Positions 4,944 through 32,443 of a stretch of DNA of 64,000 bases are shown here, in pieces. The DNA is from Onthophagus taurus (Eukaryota; Arthropoda; Insecta; Coleoptera; Scarabaeidae). Where the stretch lies: contig NC_091966.1 of the NCBI RefSeq assembly GCF_036711975.1, positions 44,151,501-44,215,500 of the forward strand, given 5' to 3'. How positions within the stretch are numbered: the stretch's first letter is position 1; every line of letters starts with the position of its first letter. The translations under genes and the position numbers were made by a program. The notes under the pieces were generated by a model. That model did no database searches, was not told the origin of the DNA, and was given only the letters and a program-made list of their open reading frames with translations.

Positions 4944-5985
4944 GATTAAAACGAGGGACACAACATTTTCGAGATTAATTTAAAACCAAAATGTATAACA
5001 AATTGCAAACCATCTTCAAATCGATTTGTTAATTACCCCATATAAAAAAGACAGTAATAAAATGATATAATACTATTTTATTTCCGATTTAGAAATAGTT
5101 TTAGTTGCAATTTTACCAGAGGGACACCTGAATATTTAATGAAGTGCGAACCAACTTTTAAAAATTTTTGAATTTTGTGTACATAAAATATTTGTTACTT
5201 TAATGTAACTTAATGAAGTAATACTAATGAGTCTCACCATATAGCTTTTTGCTCGAATGAATGTACTTATCTCAGTATATAAGATTTGATATTAGAGGGA
5301 CACTTTTTTAGCCCTTCTGAGAACGACCCATCTGATTCTGAGATAAAATTTGTCGCCCGTTTCTTGTTGGCGGTTCGATTCCAAGGTTTATAAAGGTAAG
5401 AGGCTAAGAAATTGACGATAACCCGAATCAATTCATTACGTCATCAATAGTAAATGAGGTTTTCGGTACATGAATAATACAATAACACTAGTTAATTCCA
5501 ATAAATGTGAGACTTATTCATGAATTGAGAGAATATGAATGGCATTTTAACAAATCATTGGAATATTGCTGCCAGAAGATTACTGATTGTGGTATCAAAG
5601 CAACTGTTCTGTAATTATTGCAGTTTGTTGGTTAGCTGTTTTTATAAATAACTAGTGATTCGCACTGTTCAGTTGGCCATTGTCTTGTGCTCCTTATTTT
5701 TGAGGATAAAGTGTATACATGCCATTCCTTGGGTGGTATGAATAAAGGAGAGTAAAACCTTATACTCGCAAAATTTCGAGCATTTGCTACATATTTTATG
5801 AATAAAAATGTAAGTAAAAGCTTTTACTCAACACTTTCCTCTGAGCATGAGCATCTACTTACTTTTAAGCATATGCTCCGATTGATATGAATAAAACGGA
5901 GGTTTTGCTTCACATTTTGAGCATATGCTCGATAAAATGTGCATCTAGTTCAGTACTAGATGCACCCTTTCAGTGGTCGGTAATA

Positions 5986-6993
5986 ATGGCAGAGTTTATT
6001 AATTTACGGGCAGAAAAACATTACAAAGTACGAAGAGGAGCTGATAACCGAGATTTTAAATCACTTTACCGGTTTGAGGAAGAAAATTTGCATTACATTG
6101 CAACACACTTTATGGGCGAGAACAACGAAAGAAGAGGAGGTGCTCTTTCGTCGGACCTTAAAATTAAGATATTTTTACGGTATATGACCAATCCTGGTTT
6201 CCAAACTGGTGTTGCTGAAGAATTGGGAATTCATCAGTCGACAGTATCAAAAACAATTACGTTCGTGATTAACAAAATACTCGAAAAAGCTCCTTTATGG
6301 ATCAAATTTCCGTCAACGTTGAACCAAGTAAACGAAGCACAGGAGAGGTGGCAGGAGACATTTCAATTTCCATGTGCGATAGGCGTAATTGATTGCACAC
6401 ACGTTCAAATATTGAAACCTATCCATCACGGTGATGAATACATCAACAGAAAGGGGTTGGCGACTTTAAATGTGCAAGCAACGTGCAACTCCAAAGAAAT
6501 CTTTACTAGTGTTGATGCAAGTTGGCCGGGTTCTGTGCATGACGCTAGAATTTGGAGAAATTCTGAAACACGTTTGATTATGCAACAATTCCCTGGTGCA
6601 ATATTATTAGGAGATGACGGTTATGGTTTGGAACCGTGGCTAATGACACCATTTCGGAACCCAAATAACGAATCTGAAAGAACTTACAACAGATTGTTTA
6701 AGAAAGAAAAGGTGATTATCGAAAGATGTTTCGGCCAACTTAAGCGAAGATTTCCAATTCTAAAATATATGTGCCGTGTTAAATTGGAAAGAGTCCCTTC
6801 CGTTATTGTTTGTTGCATTGTACTACACAACATTGCCAAATATTTAGGAGATGCAGATTTTCCAGATGATGATGATGAAGAAAATCTCAATAACGGCGAA
6901 GAATATGAATTAGAAGAAGATCGTCTTCTTCAGCGTGCAAGAGAGCGAAGACTTGAAATAGCTGATGTTATCTTTACACAGAATTTGAGGTAG
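5986..6993 (+). CDS. Harbinger (DDE_Tnp_4) transposase
   Basis: A 335-residue intronless frame. A helix-turn-helix appears near residues 70-95 (GVAEELGIHQSTVSKT). The catalytic acid residues are visible: first Asp in GVIDCTH, second in the ILLGDDGYG block, and Glu in IERCFGQLKRRFPIL; the SWPGSVHDARIW block between them is typical of HARBI1-like enzymes. The protein would cut and insert the element with its Myb-like partner. The frame stays open upstream to an ATG at 5887, but that extension lies in the repeat-rich terminal region; MAEFINLRAEKHYK at 5986 looks like the real N-terminus. No break is seen. Confidence 0.9.
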   Translation: MAEFINLRAEKHYKVRRGADNRDFKSLYRFEEENLHYIATHFMGENNERRGGALSSDLKIKIFLRYMTNPGFQTGVAEELGIHQSTVSKTITFVINKILEKAPLWIKFPSTLNQVNEAQERWQETFQFPCAIGVIDCTHVQILKPIHHGDEYINRKGLATLNVQATCNSKEIFTSVDASWPGSVHDARIWRNSETRLIMQQFPGAILLGDDGYGLEPWLMTPFRNPNNESERTYNRLFKKEKVIIERCFGQLKRRFPILKYMCRVKLERVPSVIVCCIVLHNIAKYLGDADFPDDDDEENLNNGEEYELEEDRLLQRARERRLEIADVIFTQNLR

Positions 6994-7821: not shown

Positions 7822-8740
7822 TTAAAGCACTGCGTACCTAGGTACATCATTATCGTTTTCGTTTCCATCAGGCTCATAATAAGAGCGACCGGTATTGGAT
7901 TTTTGCATCATTTCTCGATAATACTGCCTTTGAACACGAGTGGTCTCCAATTGTTCGATAAGTACCAATCGTTGCAATTCCTGAGTAGTGAGTTTGGAAG
8001 TTTCTTCTGTTTCATATGTTTCTAAATTCTTCTTCGTTTGATGTTTTGTAGGTCGAGGTGGCACAAGGGAAGCTATTTGGGGACTAAATTCATCCGTCTG
8101 CGCAGACTCAAGCAATATAGAAGATGATAAATCTTCGTTGTTTTTGTTTATTTTGGTGGTAGGAGGTCCAATACTTTTTGCTCCTATAATAAAAACGGAA
8201 CATATTTAGCCATTAGTTTAAAATTATGAATGAAAATAACTACCTATTTCATATTTCGTACAAATTTTTAGTGTTTCAAAGAGCCATTTTTTATACATCT
8301 AGTTAGGTAAGTTATGTAAAGAATTAACTTTAACAAAGTTTTATGAATATATACGCGATACATATATTTGTATAACATAAACAGGTTAAATAAAATACAT
8401 ACTTACCAGGAATTTTGCTTATAGTCGGATTATCCTCTCCATCCATTAATTCGTGCAAAATTTTTTCCCACTGGCATAAAACGGTTTTTTTATTCCCGGT
8501 TTTGTTTTTGTCCACTTTGCTTTTTAGCCTCGTTTTCATATTGTTTACTTTTTTCATCAATTGAGAAGAGGTTAATGGTTTTCCCAATTGACGTTCTAGC
8601 TCAAGAACTGATTGCCTCAAGGCTTCATCTTTCAATGTTTTTTTCTGCGGAATTTGTGTTTTCCATGACCTTTTTTGCAACTGCAATGCTACTAGCAAAT
8701 TGTTGCTTGATACATCGTCACCATTTTCTTCTGCCGACAT
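7822..8740 (-). CDS. Harbinger accessory protein, Myb/SANT-like
   Basis: Two exons, 8740-8407 and 8183-7822, joined in phase 1, giving 231 residues. The N-terminal half (about residues 20-100) has the pattern of the Myb/SANT-like protein of Harbinger elements: KKTLKDEALRQSVLELERQ, LTSSQLMKKVNNMKTRLKSK, then CQWEKILHELM. The C-terminal half is charged, with a probable coiled helix (LTTQELQRLVLIEQLETTR). In known Harbinger systems this second protein helps the transposase reach the nucleus and bind the ends. Splice signals are GTAAGTAT and ATTATAG. The frame is intact. Confidence 0.82.
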
Positions 8741-10168
8741 TGTTGTCTTACAAATTACTGGTTTATACAAAGCATTAAACTTCTAAGGGTATAATTCAGT
8801 ATGTTAGGTTAGGTAAATAAACACAAACATCAAATACTAAGAGCGTAAGTATAACAACTGCGGCACCGATTTATACAAGTCACGACGAGTTAGACGAGCA
8901 AATCCTCATTTGATCTAAGCAGATGCTCATAAGTAAAAGCAAATCATTATTCATACAAATCGGAGCAAATGCTTATACTCGGACCTTTTACTTTCAGCAT
9001 AAGCTTATAGCTGTTGCTTATACTTAAGAGCATTTGCTCGCTTTTTATTCATACCACCCCTTGTCTTTCTCCCTTGGTTTTGTAGATTTCGGCAGATATC
9101 CCATCTAATAATTTGTGAAATACGTTAACAATAATAAAAAGCTGTGTGGTAAATGTGATTCGATTTAATATTACGGAGGTAACATAAGGTCTTTTGTAAC
9201 ATAAAAGAAATACTTTACAACAAATTTGGATTAAATACATGAAAACATAAACAATTACTGATATAGAAAGGTAATCTAAAGTTTATGTAGACGATAAAAT
9301 CTTAAAAAAGAAAGATTCAAATATTTACATTTTAAACTATTTTGATTCACAAAAAATCGGGATAAAAATTAAAAAAAAAATCGATTTATTATCGTATAAT
9401 TTATTGATATATTCTTCTATATTATACATTTAGGAAGTTTTGGCTTCGTCGCCAAAAAAAAATAAAAATAAACAAAAAAAAATTGTAACAAAAGGTGAAA
9501 ACAGCACAAAACGTTCTTATATCAACTAAGAAAAAATATATTTACACGAATATCAAACGTTTTGACCAATATAATCAATCTAAAAAAAAAAAGAGTCAAA
9601 AACGTTATAAACTAAAACGATTCGCTTAATTAATAATAAAACAGAAAGAAAAATTGAACAAAAAATCCACCGTTTCACATCCTTTTTTCTTTTAAATTTT
9701 CGGTGGTTGTTAGCACCTAGCATACACATATACCTTAAAAATTAGGTTTTTAATCTTTATTTACAATTATTATCGTTAGTTCCAAGTAGATAACAATGTC
9801 TGGTTCTTAATTGACACCTATTTTTTGAGGATGAAGGAACGAAAATCATCCTAAATTGATGATAAAAACCATCAATATTAAATCAACTTTTTTATTTGAT
9901 TTGTATACAGCTTTTTAAAATCAAAATAACTCATTTATATATCTCAAGTTATAAGTTTAATTTTTTTTATTTCGTTTTAAATAAACAAACGATAAAGTCC
10001 TGTTCTTATCAATTAGATAAAGACCAATGGAAGGTTTTCATCGAAATCGCGATTACTTTATTTACATTATGAAACGTTATTTATTTCTTTTTGGGGTCTT
10101 TGTAATTAGTTAATTGTAAAAAAATTAAACTGGATTAAGTAGTGATAATAGATTAAAATAGATCTTAC

Positions 10169-11867: not shown

Positions 11868-28843
<16,976 letters not shown>

Positions 28844-30467: not shown

Positions 30468-30473
30468 TTTTAT
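30468..30473 (-). terminator. polyadenylation signal of the proline-rich gene
   Basis: AATAAA on the minus strand, about 57 bases after the stop codon. Confidence 0.5.
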
Positions 30474-30529
30474 TATAAACATTTTAATTAAACATTAATA
30501 TATAAATCAACGCCATATTTTAATCGATT

Positions 30530-32184
30530 TTAGTACAATGCTTTAATCGGAGCAGGTTTCGTTCCCTGTAAAACAAAAAAGTTTACAAAAGTAAGCAATT
30601 TACTTCATTTTCTTAATATACTTACAACAGGTTGAGGTAAAGGTCTAGGTCTCTATTTCAATGTAAAATATAGATTAATTTAAATTAATAGGTTTAAAAG
30701 AAGATAATTTTAACTTACAACCGGTTGAACTTGTGGTCTTAAATCTGGTCCTCCAGTTTTAGGAATGTCCTTAGTTTGTCTCTGAAATTTAATTAATGAT
30801 AATTAAATTATTTATTATTAATTACCTTTATTTTTTTTATATTTACGGTTTGGCGAGCAAAAGTTTTTATTGGACGAGGCCGATTTTGATCCTGAAAAAT
30901 TAAATAAATTTAAAATGAATTATTATTAATATATTAACTTACAATTGGATCAATTTGAGGGCCATCTAAAGAACCTGGTCGTCCTCCTGTTTTAGGAATA
31001 TCCTTAGTTTGTCTCTGAAAATTTTTGTTTTAATCTAACGTTTAAGTATATCTATTGTTATTCTTACAACTGATCGATTAAGGGGTTTTGCTGGAATTGG
31101 ACGAGTTTGATCCTAAAATACAATAAAGGTTAAATTGATTATTTGTTAATAAAATTTGTTAATAACATACAATTGGATCAATTTGAGGGCCATCTAAAGA
31201 ACCTGGTTGTCCTCCTGTTTTAGGAATATCCTTAGTTTGTCTCTGAAAATTTTTTTTAATCTAACATTGTTTAAGTATATTTATTTTTATTCTTACAACT
31301 GATCGATTAAGGGGTTTTGCTGGAATTGGACGAGTTTGTTCCTAAAATACAATAACAGTTAAATTGATTATTTGTTAATAACATTTGTTAATAACTTACA
31401 ATTGGATCAATTTGAGGGCCATCTAAAGAACCTGGTCGTCCTCCTGTTTTAGGAATATCCTTAGTTTGTCTCTGAAAATTTTTTTTAATCTAATATTGTT
31501 TAAGTATATTTATTTTTATTCTTACAACTGATCGATTAAGGGGTTTTGCTGGAATTGGACGAGTTTGATCCTAAAATATAATGAAGATTAAATTGATTAT
31601 TTGTTAATAAAATTTGTTAATAACATACGATTGGATCAATTTGAGGGCCATCTAAAGAACCTGGTGGACCTCCGTGTTTAGGAATATCCTTAGTTTGCCT
31701 CTAAAAAAAATTTATTAAATTTATTATTATTATAATTCATTATTTTTTTTATTCTTACAGCTGATCTAGCTTGAGGATTTACGGGAAGAGGAAGAGTAGC
31801 TGGTTTCTAAAAAATGATATTAAATTATATTATGCTTAAATTTTTGTGATGTTTAATCTTACTTCAGGGCGTGTAAGTTCACTTGGTTTAATTTTCTGTT
31901 TAAAAAATAATTCATTTAAATTCTTTTTTTAGATAGTAATCAAATAAATTACCGGTGGTTGAACTTGAGGTTGAGTTGGATCTTGACGTCTAACTCTAGC
32001 ACCTGACGCTGGTACTGGAACGGGTTTAATTGGTCCTCCTGCTGACCCAGGAGCTGGACCTGGTACTCCTTGAGGAATTGAGTAACAAACGCTTACCAAA
32101 AAGGTAAATAATAAAACTGGCAACATCTACAAAAAAATTAATATAAGCCAAATGTATTTAAAAACATCAACTTACATTGAACAT
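30530..32184 (-). CDS. secreted proline-rich multi-peptide precursor
   Basis: Fifteen exons, every intron in phase 0: 32184-32176, 32126-31953, 31895-31863, 31806-31759, 31700-31629, 31570-31526, 31471-31400, 31341-31297, 31242-31171, 31112-31068, 31014-30943, 30891-30847, 30781-30719, 30652-30626, 30565-30530. The product has 285 residues. It begins with a signal peptide (MFNMLPVLLFTFLVSVCYS), then a Gly/Pro propeptide ending RVRR. Six RXXR/Q sites follow: RVRR, RSAR, RSVR three times, and RQTR, each with Gln next. Cutting there gives peptides of 39, 39, 39, 39, 39 and 40 residues; repeat peptides open QTKDIPK and carry RPIPAKP or RPRPIK. The layout recalls apidaecin and acaloleptin multi-peptide antimicrobial precursors, but I recognise no homologue and activity is inferred. 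Confidence 0.85.
30943..31700 (-). repeat. 229-bp tandem repeat of an exon pair
   Basis: The 72-nt exons start at 31700, 31471, 31242 and 31014, and the 45-nt exons at 31570, 31341 and 31112: steps of 229, 229 and 228 bases. Introns are as alike as exons between the copies (for example TTAAATTGATTATTTGTTAATAA recurs three times, shown here as a word present in each intron), so the unit of duplication was genomic DNA holding two exons and two introns, and it is recent. Confidence 0.95.
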
Positions 32185-32228: not shown

Positions 32229-32263
32229 ACTGATTTGGAATCGTTTTACTCCTAACTTTTATA
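32229..32263 (-). promoter_or_regulatory. TATA box and initiator of the proline-rich gene
   Basis: On the minus strand TATAAAA occupies 32263-32257 and an arthropod initiator TCAGT occupies 32233-32229, with the expected start A at 32231, 32 bases after the first T of TATA. The 5' UTR would be 47 nt to the ATG at 32184. Spacing is canonical, which also supports the first, 9-nt coding exon. Confidence 0.75.
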
Positions 32264-32433: not shown

Positions 32434-32443
32434 GTAAGTCCCC
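32434..32443 (-). promoter_or_regulatory. Rel/NF-kB-like site
   Basis: GGGGACTTAC on the minus strand, about 205 bases upstream of the predicted start. It fits GGGRNNYYNC and resembles insect Rel sites of immune peptide promoters. A 10-mer with this degeneracy can occur by chance. Confidence 0.35.

Follow-up and report, generated by a model that had tools for sequence, protein, structure and literature searches.

Organization of the predicted precursor gene

We analyzed a 64,000-nucleotide stretch of the genome of the beetle Onthophagus taurus (hereafter, the window). On its minus strand, running from position 32184 to 30530, 15 exons can be joined into a single predicted product of 285 residues, and rebuilding this gene from the sequence bore out the coordinates, the exon count, the cut sites, and the piece lengths given in the initial annotation. 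The exons measure 9, 174, 33, 48, 72, 45, 72, 45, 72, 45, 72, 45, 63, 27, and 36 nt; all 15 lengths are divisible by three, all 15 exons are free of stop codons, and 14 are shorter than 75 nt. Each of the 14 introns is of the GT...AG type, with sizes of 49–66 nt, and reading through meets an in-frame stop in 13 of them.

The first possible start codon opens exon 1 (32176–32184, minus strand, as are all of the gene's features below), which encodes MFN, and a second ATG begins exon 2 (31953–32126), which carries the signal peptide, a proline-rich propeptide, an RVRR site, and the start of peptide 1 (11 residues, QDPTQPQVQPP). The remainder of peptide 1 comes from exon 3 (31863–31895, KIKPSELTRPE) and exon 4 (31759–31806, KPATLPLPVNPQARSA). 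Module comparison divides the exons that follow into A and B modules, one of each per peptide: exons 5 (31629–31700, RQTKDIPKHGGPPGSLDGPQIDPI) and 6 (31526–31570, DQTRPIPAKPLNRSV) for peptide 2, exons 7 (31400–31471) and 8 (31297–31341) for peptide 3, exons 9 (31171–31242) and 10 (31068–31112) for peptide 4, and exons 11 (30943–31014) and 12 (30847–30891, a diverged B module, DQNRPRPIKTFARQT) for peptide 5. Peptide 6 starts in exon 13 (30719–30781, RQTKDIPKTGGPDLRPQVQPV), continues in exon 14 (30626–30652, RPRPLPQPV), the acceptor of which (GAAATAG) is by eye the weakest-looking of the set, and ends with the stop codon in exon 15 (30530–30565, GTKPAPIKALY). An AATAAA polyadenylation signal lies at 30469–30474, 55 nt 3' of the stop codon. 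The gene model predicts a real-looking, apparently undescribed peptide precursor.

Elsewhere in the window, an open frame of 374 residues at 5869–6993 on the plus strand matches the transposase family DDE_Tnp_4 (PF13359, E = 1.3e-35), and we take it to be HARBI1-like. Two small minus-strand frames beside it (7822–8205 and 8330–8782) may represent the element's partner gene; the frame at 8333–8779 had no Pfam match. A helicase gene at 26381–28678 on the minus strand, continuing to about 23506, encodes a CCHC zinc knuckle as well as a DEAD domain and is presumably RecQ4-like. On the strand opposite this gene, a frame at 25354–25779 looks like a retroelement remnant.

The predicted precursor and its cut sites

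The product begins with a hydrophobic signal sequence, the core of which reaches 2.78 on the Kyte–Doolittle scale, and the -1,-3 rule places the probable signal cut at CYS/IPQG. The propeptide, 31 residues long, ends in the first of six RXXR sites, which stand at residues 47, 86, 125, 164, 203, and 242 and read RVRR, RSAR, RSVR (three times), and RQTR. The protein contains no further RXXR, and Gln comes next after every one of the six, so that cutting would give Gln-headed pieces of 39, 39, 39, 39, 39, and 40 residues. An intron falls between P2 and P1 in all of the sites except RVRR, which lies inside exon 2. As judged from their motifs, RSAR, RSVR, and RQTR are furin sites of the minimal, not the optimal, kind. 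The string RXXRQ occurs six times in the protein, whereas 20,000 residue shuffles averaged 0.18 and never exceeded three. Once duplicate modules are removed, it occurs four times, a count that none of 20,000 shuffles reached (mean 0.13), although the sites are related by descent and the shuffles therefore overstate their independence.

The six pieces have a net charge of +2 to +5 and a proline content of 15–26%, with three or four acidic residues in each of pieces 1–5 and two in piece 6. Their predicted average masses, with pyroglutamate and an untrimmed C-terminus, are close to 4176, 4181, 4218, 4295, 4339, and 4340 Da, and would be lower by about 156 wherever a final Arg is lost. Either RPIP or RPRP is present in pieces 2–6, and piece 1 has neither. 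Constancy is highest at the N-terminus, where five of the six pieces share QTKDIPK-x-GG, and the C-terminal halves are variable. The pieces show the features of the class of proline-rich antimicrobial peptides (short, proline-rich, with RP/PRP, and cationic), and the precursor shows, at the level of motifs, the layout of furin-processed multi-peptide precursors, that is, a signal peptide followed by repeated peptides separated by RXXR. It does not group with neuropeptide precursors, since there is no dibasic pair inside any of the six pieces and no C-terminal amidation signal (G plus two basic residues) anywhere in the 285-residue protein. The secretion, furin-like cutting, and N-terminal Gln that the initial annotation had proposed are supported at motif level, and a combination of tandem peptides, RXRR sites, and N-terminal pyroglutamate has been measured in Baramicin A of Drosophila (PMC8423362).

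Duplication and divergence of the exon pairs

Pieces 2–5 are copies of a two-exon module, with a spacing of about 229 nt that is visible in the raw DNA. In this module, exon A (R plus QTKDIPK-x-GG...IDPI) is 72 nt long, and exon B, which encodes either DQTRPIPAKPLNRSV or DQNRPRPIKTFARQT, is 45 nt long. The initial annotation had drawn attention to the near-identical lengths of the pieces. The lengths are correct, but because pieces 2–5 are copies of one module, their equality needs no special explanation and is mostly a by-product of tandem exon duplication. Evidence of a length constraint that is partly independent comes only from the two outer pieces, which are assembled from other exons: piece 1 (39 residues) uses the tail of exon 2 with exons 3 and 4, whereas piece 6 (40 residues) uses exons 13–15. 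These are two cases and may be a coincidence.

Exon 4 is related to the B exons. Together with its flank it has a 75% DNA match to 31281–31335; on its own it is 64% identical to exon 6 and one codon longer. Exons 7 and 11 are identical at 72 of 72 bases, for which constraint or gene conversion was considered and dropped, as the introns upstream of them (introns 6 and 10) are also 94% identical. The wider differences are confined to the downstream introns (74% identity), so exon 11 simply closes the young tandem array. Exon 12 lies beyond this array; compared with exon 10 it has 60% identity, with 18 substitutions and its length unchanged, and the introns that adjoin it have 65–74% identity and altered lengths. 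Of the 19 differences that separate modules 3 and 4, 16 are nonsynonymous and three are synonymous, nearly all of them in exon B, so the tail of peptide 5 was free, or was driven, to change. Divergence of exon 12 (30847–30891) beyond that of its flanking introns, by mostly nonsynonymous changes, could reflect selection on the cationic tail that is relaxed or diversifying.

Coding constraint is moderately supported by the codons. The P4 Arg is encoded by AGA in exon 4, by CGA in exons 6, 8, and 10, and by CGC in exon 12, and Arg is kept throughout. Across five exons, four of the five codon differences in the RQTKDIPK-x-GG stretch, which was picked after inspection of the data, are synonymous, against a 23% share of synonymous sites (P = 0.012); counted by bases, the figure for this stretch is four of seven (P = 0.055). 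The older copies have changed by substitution without change of length (exon 12 against exon 10), save for one codon (exon 4 against exon 6). Exons and introns of the young copies have diverged about equally, and these copies therefore give no sign of constraint, either way; nor do we see any sign of strong constraint within the young copies and exon 12.

Upstream sequence and the coleoptericin yardstick

A pattern scan found TATAAA at 32258–32263 on the minus strand, a candidate core promoter together with TCAGT at 32229–32233. Two such pairs occur in the window, compared with 1.39 expected, and as promoter evidence the pair is not significant alone. An NF-kappaB-like site, GGGGACTTAC, is located at 32434–32443 on the minus strand, 259 nt before the first ATG and 180 nt before the TATA. 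Three of the five NF-kappaB patterns, the strict ones, found nothing, and the two loose ones match GGGGACTTAC but do equally well in 25% and 13% of shuffled sequences.

The coleoptericin genes of the same genome served as a yardstick. There are at least 10 places matching PF06286 in the O. taurus genome, all on contig 7 among the matches listed, whereas the window is on contig 1. They form two clusters, at 2.23–2.25 Mb and 31.37–31.45 Mb (L009–L016 and two more places), and one of them is 100% identical to a known rhinocerosin-like protein of O. taurus. The eight numbered loci were used for comparison, L015 being without a located start codon. We built an NF-kappaB profile from 15 sites of six of these loci, with L016 left out and L012 giving no site. 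The profile finds the same GGGGACTTAC site; its score there is reached or exceeded by 6.3% of 364 background windows measuring 350 bp, and by 12% of 700-bp windows. A pair of upstream sites is present in five of the eight loci (L009, L010, L011, L013, and L014) and absent from L012, L015, and L016. The first site of the pair, GGGGAATTCC or its core, is 171–174 nt upstream of the TATA in four loci and 226 nt upstream in one; the second, GGGGAATCAC or GGGGAATTAC (GGGGAATYAC), is 43–50 nt upstream in the same five. Compared with these stronger pairs, GGGGACTTAC is single and weak; it is compatible with immune control without being proof of it. The coleoptericin precursors of this genome also carry furin-like sites (RHRR, RYRR, and RNKR). 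Coleoptericins of PF06286 are found in beetles only, according to an excerpted review (PMC4874388).

Searches for relatives

The full-length product was compared with a collection of 5.8 billion proteins, and no relative at E ≤ 1 was found among the best 7994 word-sharing candidates that were scored. A shortened query with one repeat gave a single match among 149 candidates (E = 4.6, 30% identity), which we took as chance, as we did the one match among solved structures (E = 1.2). As a positive control, an O. taurus coleoptericin retrieved itself and three relatives from the same collection, so some O. taurus proteins are contained in it. In Pfam, searched with HMMER filters that may lose very weak matches, no family scored above its cut-off and three in total were listed up to E = 10: S100PBPR (E = 0.0034) was rejected because its 17.2 bits fall short of the cut-off, which is 27, and the two weaker matches were likewise below cut-off and rejected. 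The precursor did not match the profiles of apidaecin (PF00807), abaecin (PF08026), metchnikowin (PF08105), or coleoptericin/acaloleptin (PF06286). There was also no cuticle or chorion match in Pfam, and a structural family of that sort is what the initial annotation had named as evidence against its reading. The general searches of the protein collection yielded no lebocin homologue; lebocins are not known to be tandem 39-mers. No second copy of the gene was found in the O. taurus genome outside the locus, by a search with short exons, which is insensitive.

The initial annotation had recognized no described family and had pointed to a protein search of the 285-residue product as a check. That search, the Pfam results, and a search of the literature, in which three of the precursor's peptide strings occurred in no paper of the collection searched, all agree with it. 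The lack of any matching O. taurus protein, in a collection that holds four O. taurus coleoptericins, points to a gene that is missing from public annotation or wrongly modeled there, and with 14 of 15 exons this short it may have been missed for that reason. The precursor represents a new and apparently unnamed family of peptides, with an architecture of a known kind.

Discussion

We put the probability at about one in two that this gene encodes a secreted, furin-cut, multi-peptide host-defense precursor, the peptides of which circulate. The signal peptide would be removed, and a furin-type convertase in the secretory pathway would cut after each of the six RXXR sites, which would free the proline-rich propeptide and six peptides of 39–40 residues. 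Their N-terminal Gln would close to pyroglutamate, and the C-terminal Arg of the first five would probably be trimmed by a carboxypeptidase. In pieces 2–5, one exon would supply a neutral N-terminal half that starts with QTKDIPK-x-GG and a second exon a cationic, proline-containing half (RPIPAKPLN or RPRPIKTFA). As circulating host-defense peptides, they would most likely act on bacteria through the cationic RP/PRP half, and the blocked N-terminus may provide stability or contact with a target. The extra copies stem from duplication of the phase-0 exon pair, which would raise the dose per transcript. By analogy with Drosocin (PMC9233930, in excerpt), one may also speculate that removal of an Ile-Pro dipeptide by a dipeptidyl peptidase yields a Gln-headed seventh peptide from the propeptide.

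A fuller version of this proposal is tentative, and we consider it less likely than not. It would make these peptides a pyroglutamate-capped family of beetle host defense, and Coleoptera would thereby gain their first peptides of the proline-rich type, in which paired phase-0 exons join a constant neutral head to an exchangeable cationic tail and splicing could set the number and kind of peptides. Splicing could have this effect because the frame is maintained in every exon and an intron interrupts five of the six cut sites.

The peptides had been called perhaps antimicrobial in the initial annotation, which is plausible. Their charge and proline content agree with the proline-rich class, but their acidic residues and the gene's single weak NF-kappaB-like site tell against an antimicrobial role; three or four acidic residues in pieces 1–5, with a constant N-terminus, are what we take to be unlike classical proline-rich antimicrobials. 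The same points (an N-terminus more constant than the variable C-terminal halves, a charge lowered by acidic residues, and weak NF-kappaB support) would suit peptides that are cut and secreted but serve signaling or reproduction, such as a cytokine-like hemolymph factor or a seminal or salivary peptide, and do not kill microbes. We regard such a role as unlikely, given the lack of an amidation signal and of neuropeptide-type dibasic sites and the resemblance of the RP/PRP halves and RXXR architecture to known immune precursors. Host defense is, in our estimate, the most likely role, and signaling or reproduction comes next.

Arthropod structural materials often contain repetitive proline-rich secreted proteins, and no family match contradicts a structural role. 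The product could then be an uncut or partly cut secretion of cuticle, silk, egg-shell, or brood-ball coating, with RXXRQ being incidental. We consider this improbable, as RXXR stands at the repeat borders with Gln next in all of them, Arg is kept through codon changes, every piece is cationic, and Pfam gave no cuticle or chorion family. It is also improbable that the gene is decayed or unexpressed, or that the model is partly wrong, for example in exons 13–15. The missing O. taurus entry beside four coleoptericins would fit with this, as would the weak-looking acceptor of exon 14, a frame that would also end soon past exon 13, and divergence in the young copies that is no different between exons and introns. 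However, 15 stop-free exons, canonical splice sites throughout, a poly(A) signal, and Arg codons that have changed with Arg retained all speak for an intact gene.

Proline-rich antimicrobial peptides of 15–39 residues are described from four other insect orders in an excerpted review (PMC4874388), which covers flies, bugs, bees, and moths but, in those excerpts, not beetles, and which terms the coleoptericins glycine- and proline-rich. The main text of a second review (PMC11678341), as excerpted, uses none of the terms Coleoptera, beetle, and weevil. Among literature judged by titles and abstract openings, with subscription papers mostly outside, we found no proline-rich antimicrobial from a beetle. 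If confirmed, the precursor would fill this gap, and in a dung-feeding species that lives among dense microbes. Its peptides, with their unfamiliar layout of head and tail, could then be tried against bacteria and ribosomes, and the multi-peptide precursor design would seem to have arisen independently once more.

Several known systems share parts of this design, as far as the cited excerpts describe them. Acaloleptin A and coleoptericin are beetle multi-peptide precursors with up to five peptides (PMC4874388), but they belong to the PF06286 family, which the precursor does not match, and their listed places are on another contig. Lebocins of moths likewise come from proline-rich precursors with RXXR motifs (PMC5282435). 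Drosocin and Buletin are proline-rich peptides of Drosophila with RVRR between them; their precursor has a dipeptide directly behind its signal peptide and a dipeptidyl-peptidase site in addition to RVRR (PMC9233930); the counterpart of the dipeptide here would be the Ile-Pro-Gln that follows the probable signal cut. However, these are two dissimilar short peptides, without the tandem exon modules of the beetle gene. Apidaecin precursors of bees carry many short proline-rich peptides each and have serial peptide-coding exons (PMC3415428, PMC11678341). In the honeybee, the gene has several exons that each encode a peptide (PMC3415428), whereas four of the six beetle peptides take two exons each; in addition, it is the N-terminus that is constant in the beetle precursor, and the Pfam apidaecin profile finds no match in it. 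Baramicin A of Drosophila is also a secreted precursor with tandem related peptides between furin-type sites, and its N-terminal Gln has been measured as pyroglutamate (PMC8423362). It differs in being a fly gene, in its 23-residue repeats, which contain a VXRPXRTV motif that is absent from the beetle protein, and in its RXRR sites, while five of the six beetle RXXR sites are without a basic P2. Baramicin A is nonetheless the nearest working precedent, and our best reading is that the beetle precursor works like baramicin and apidaecin and belongs to neither family.
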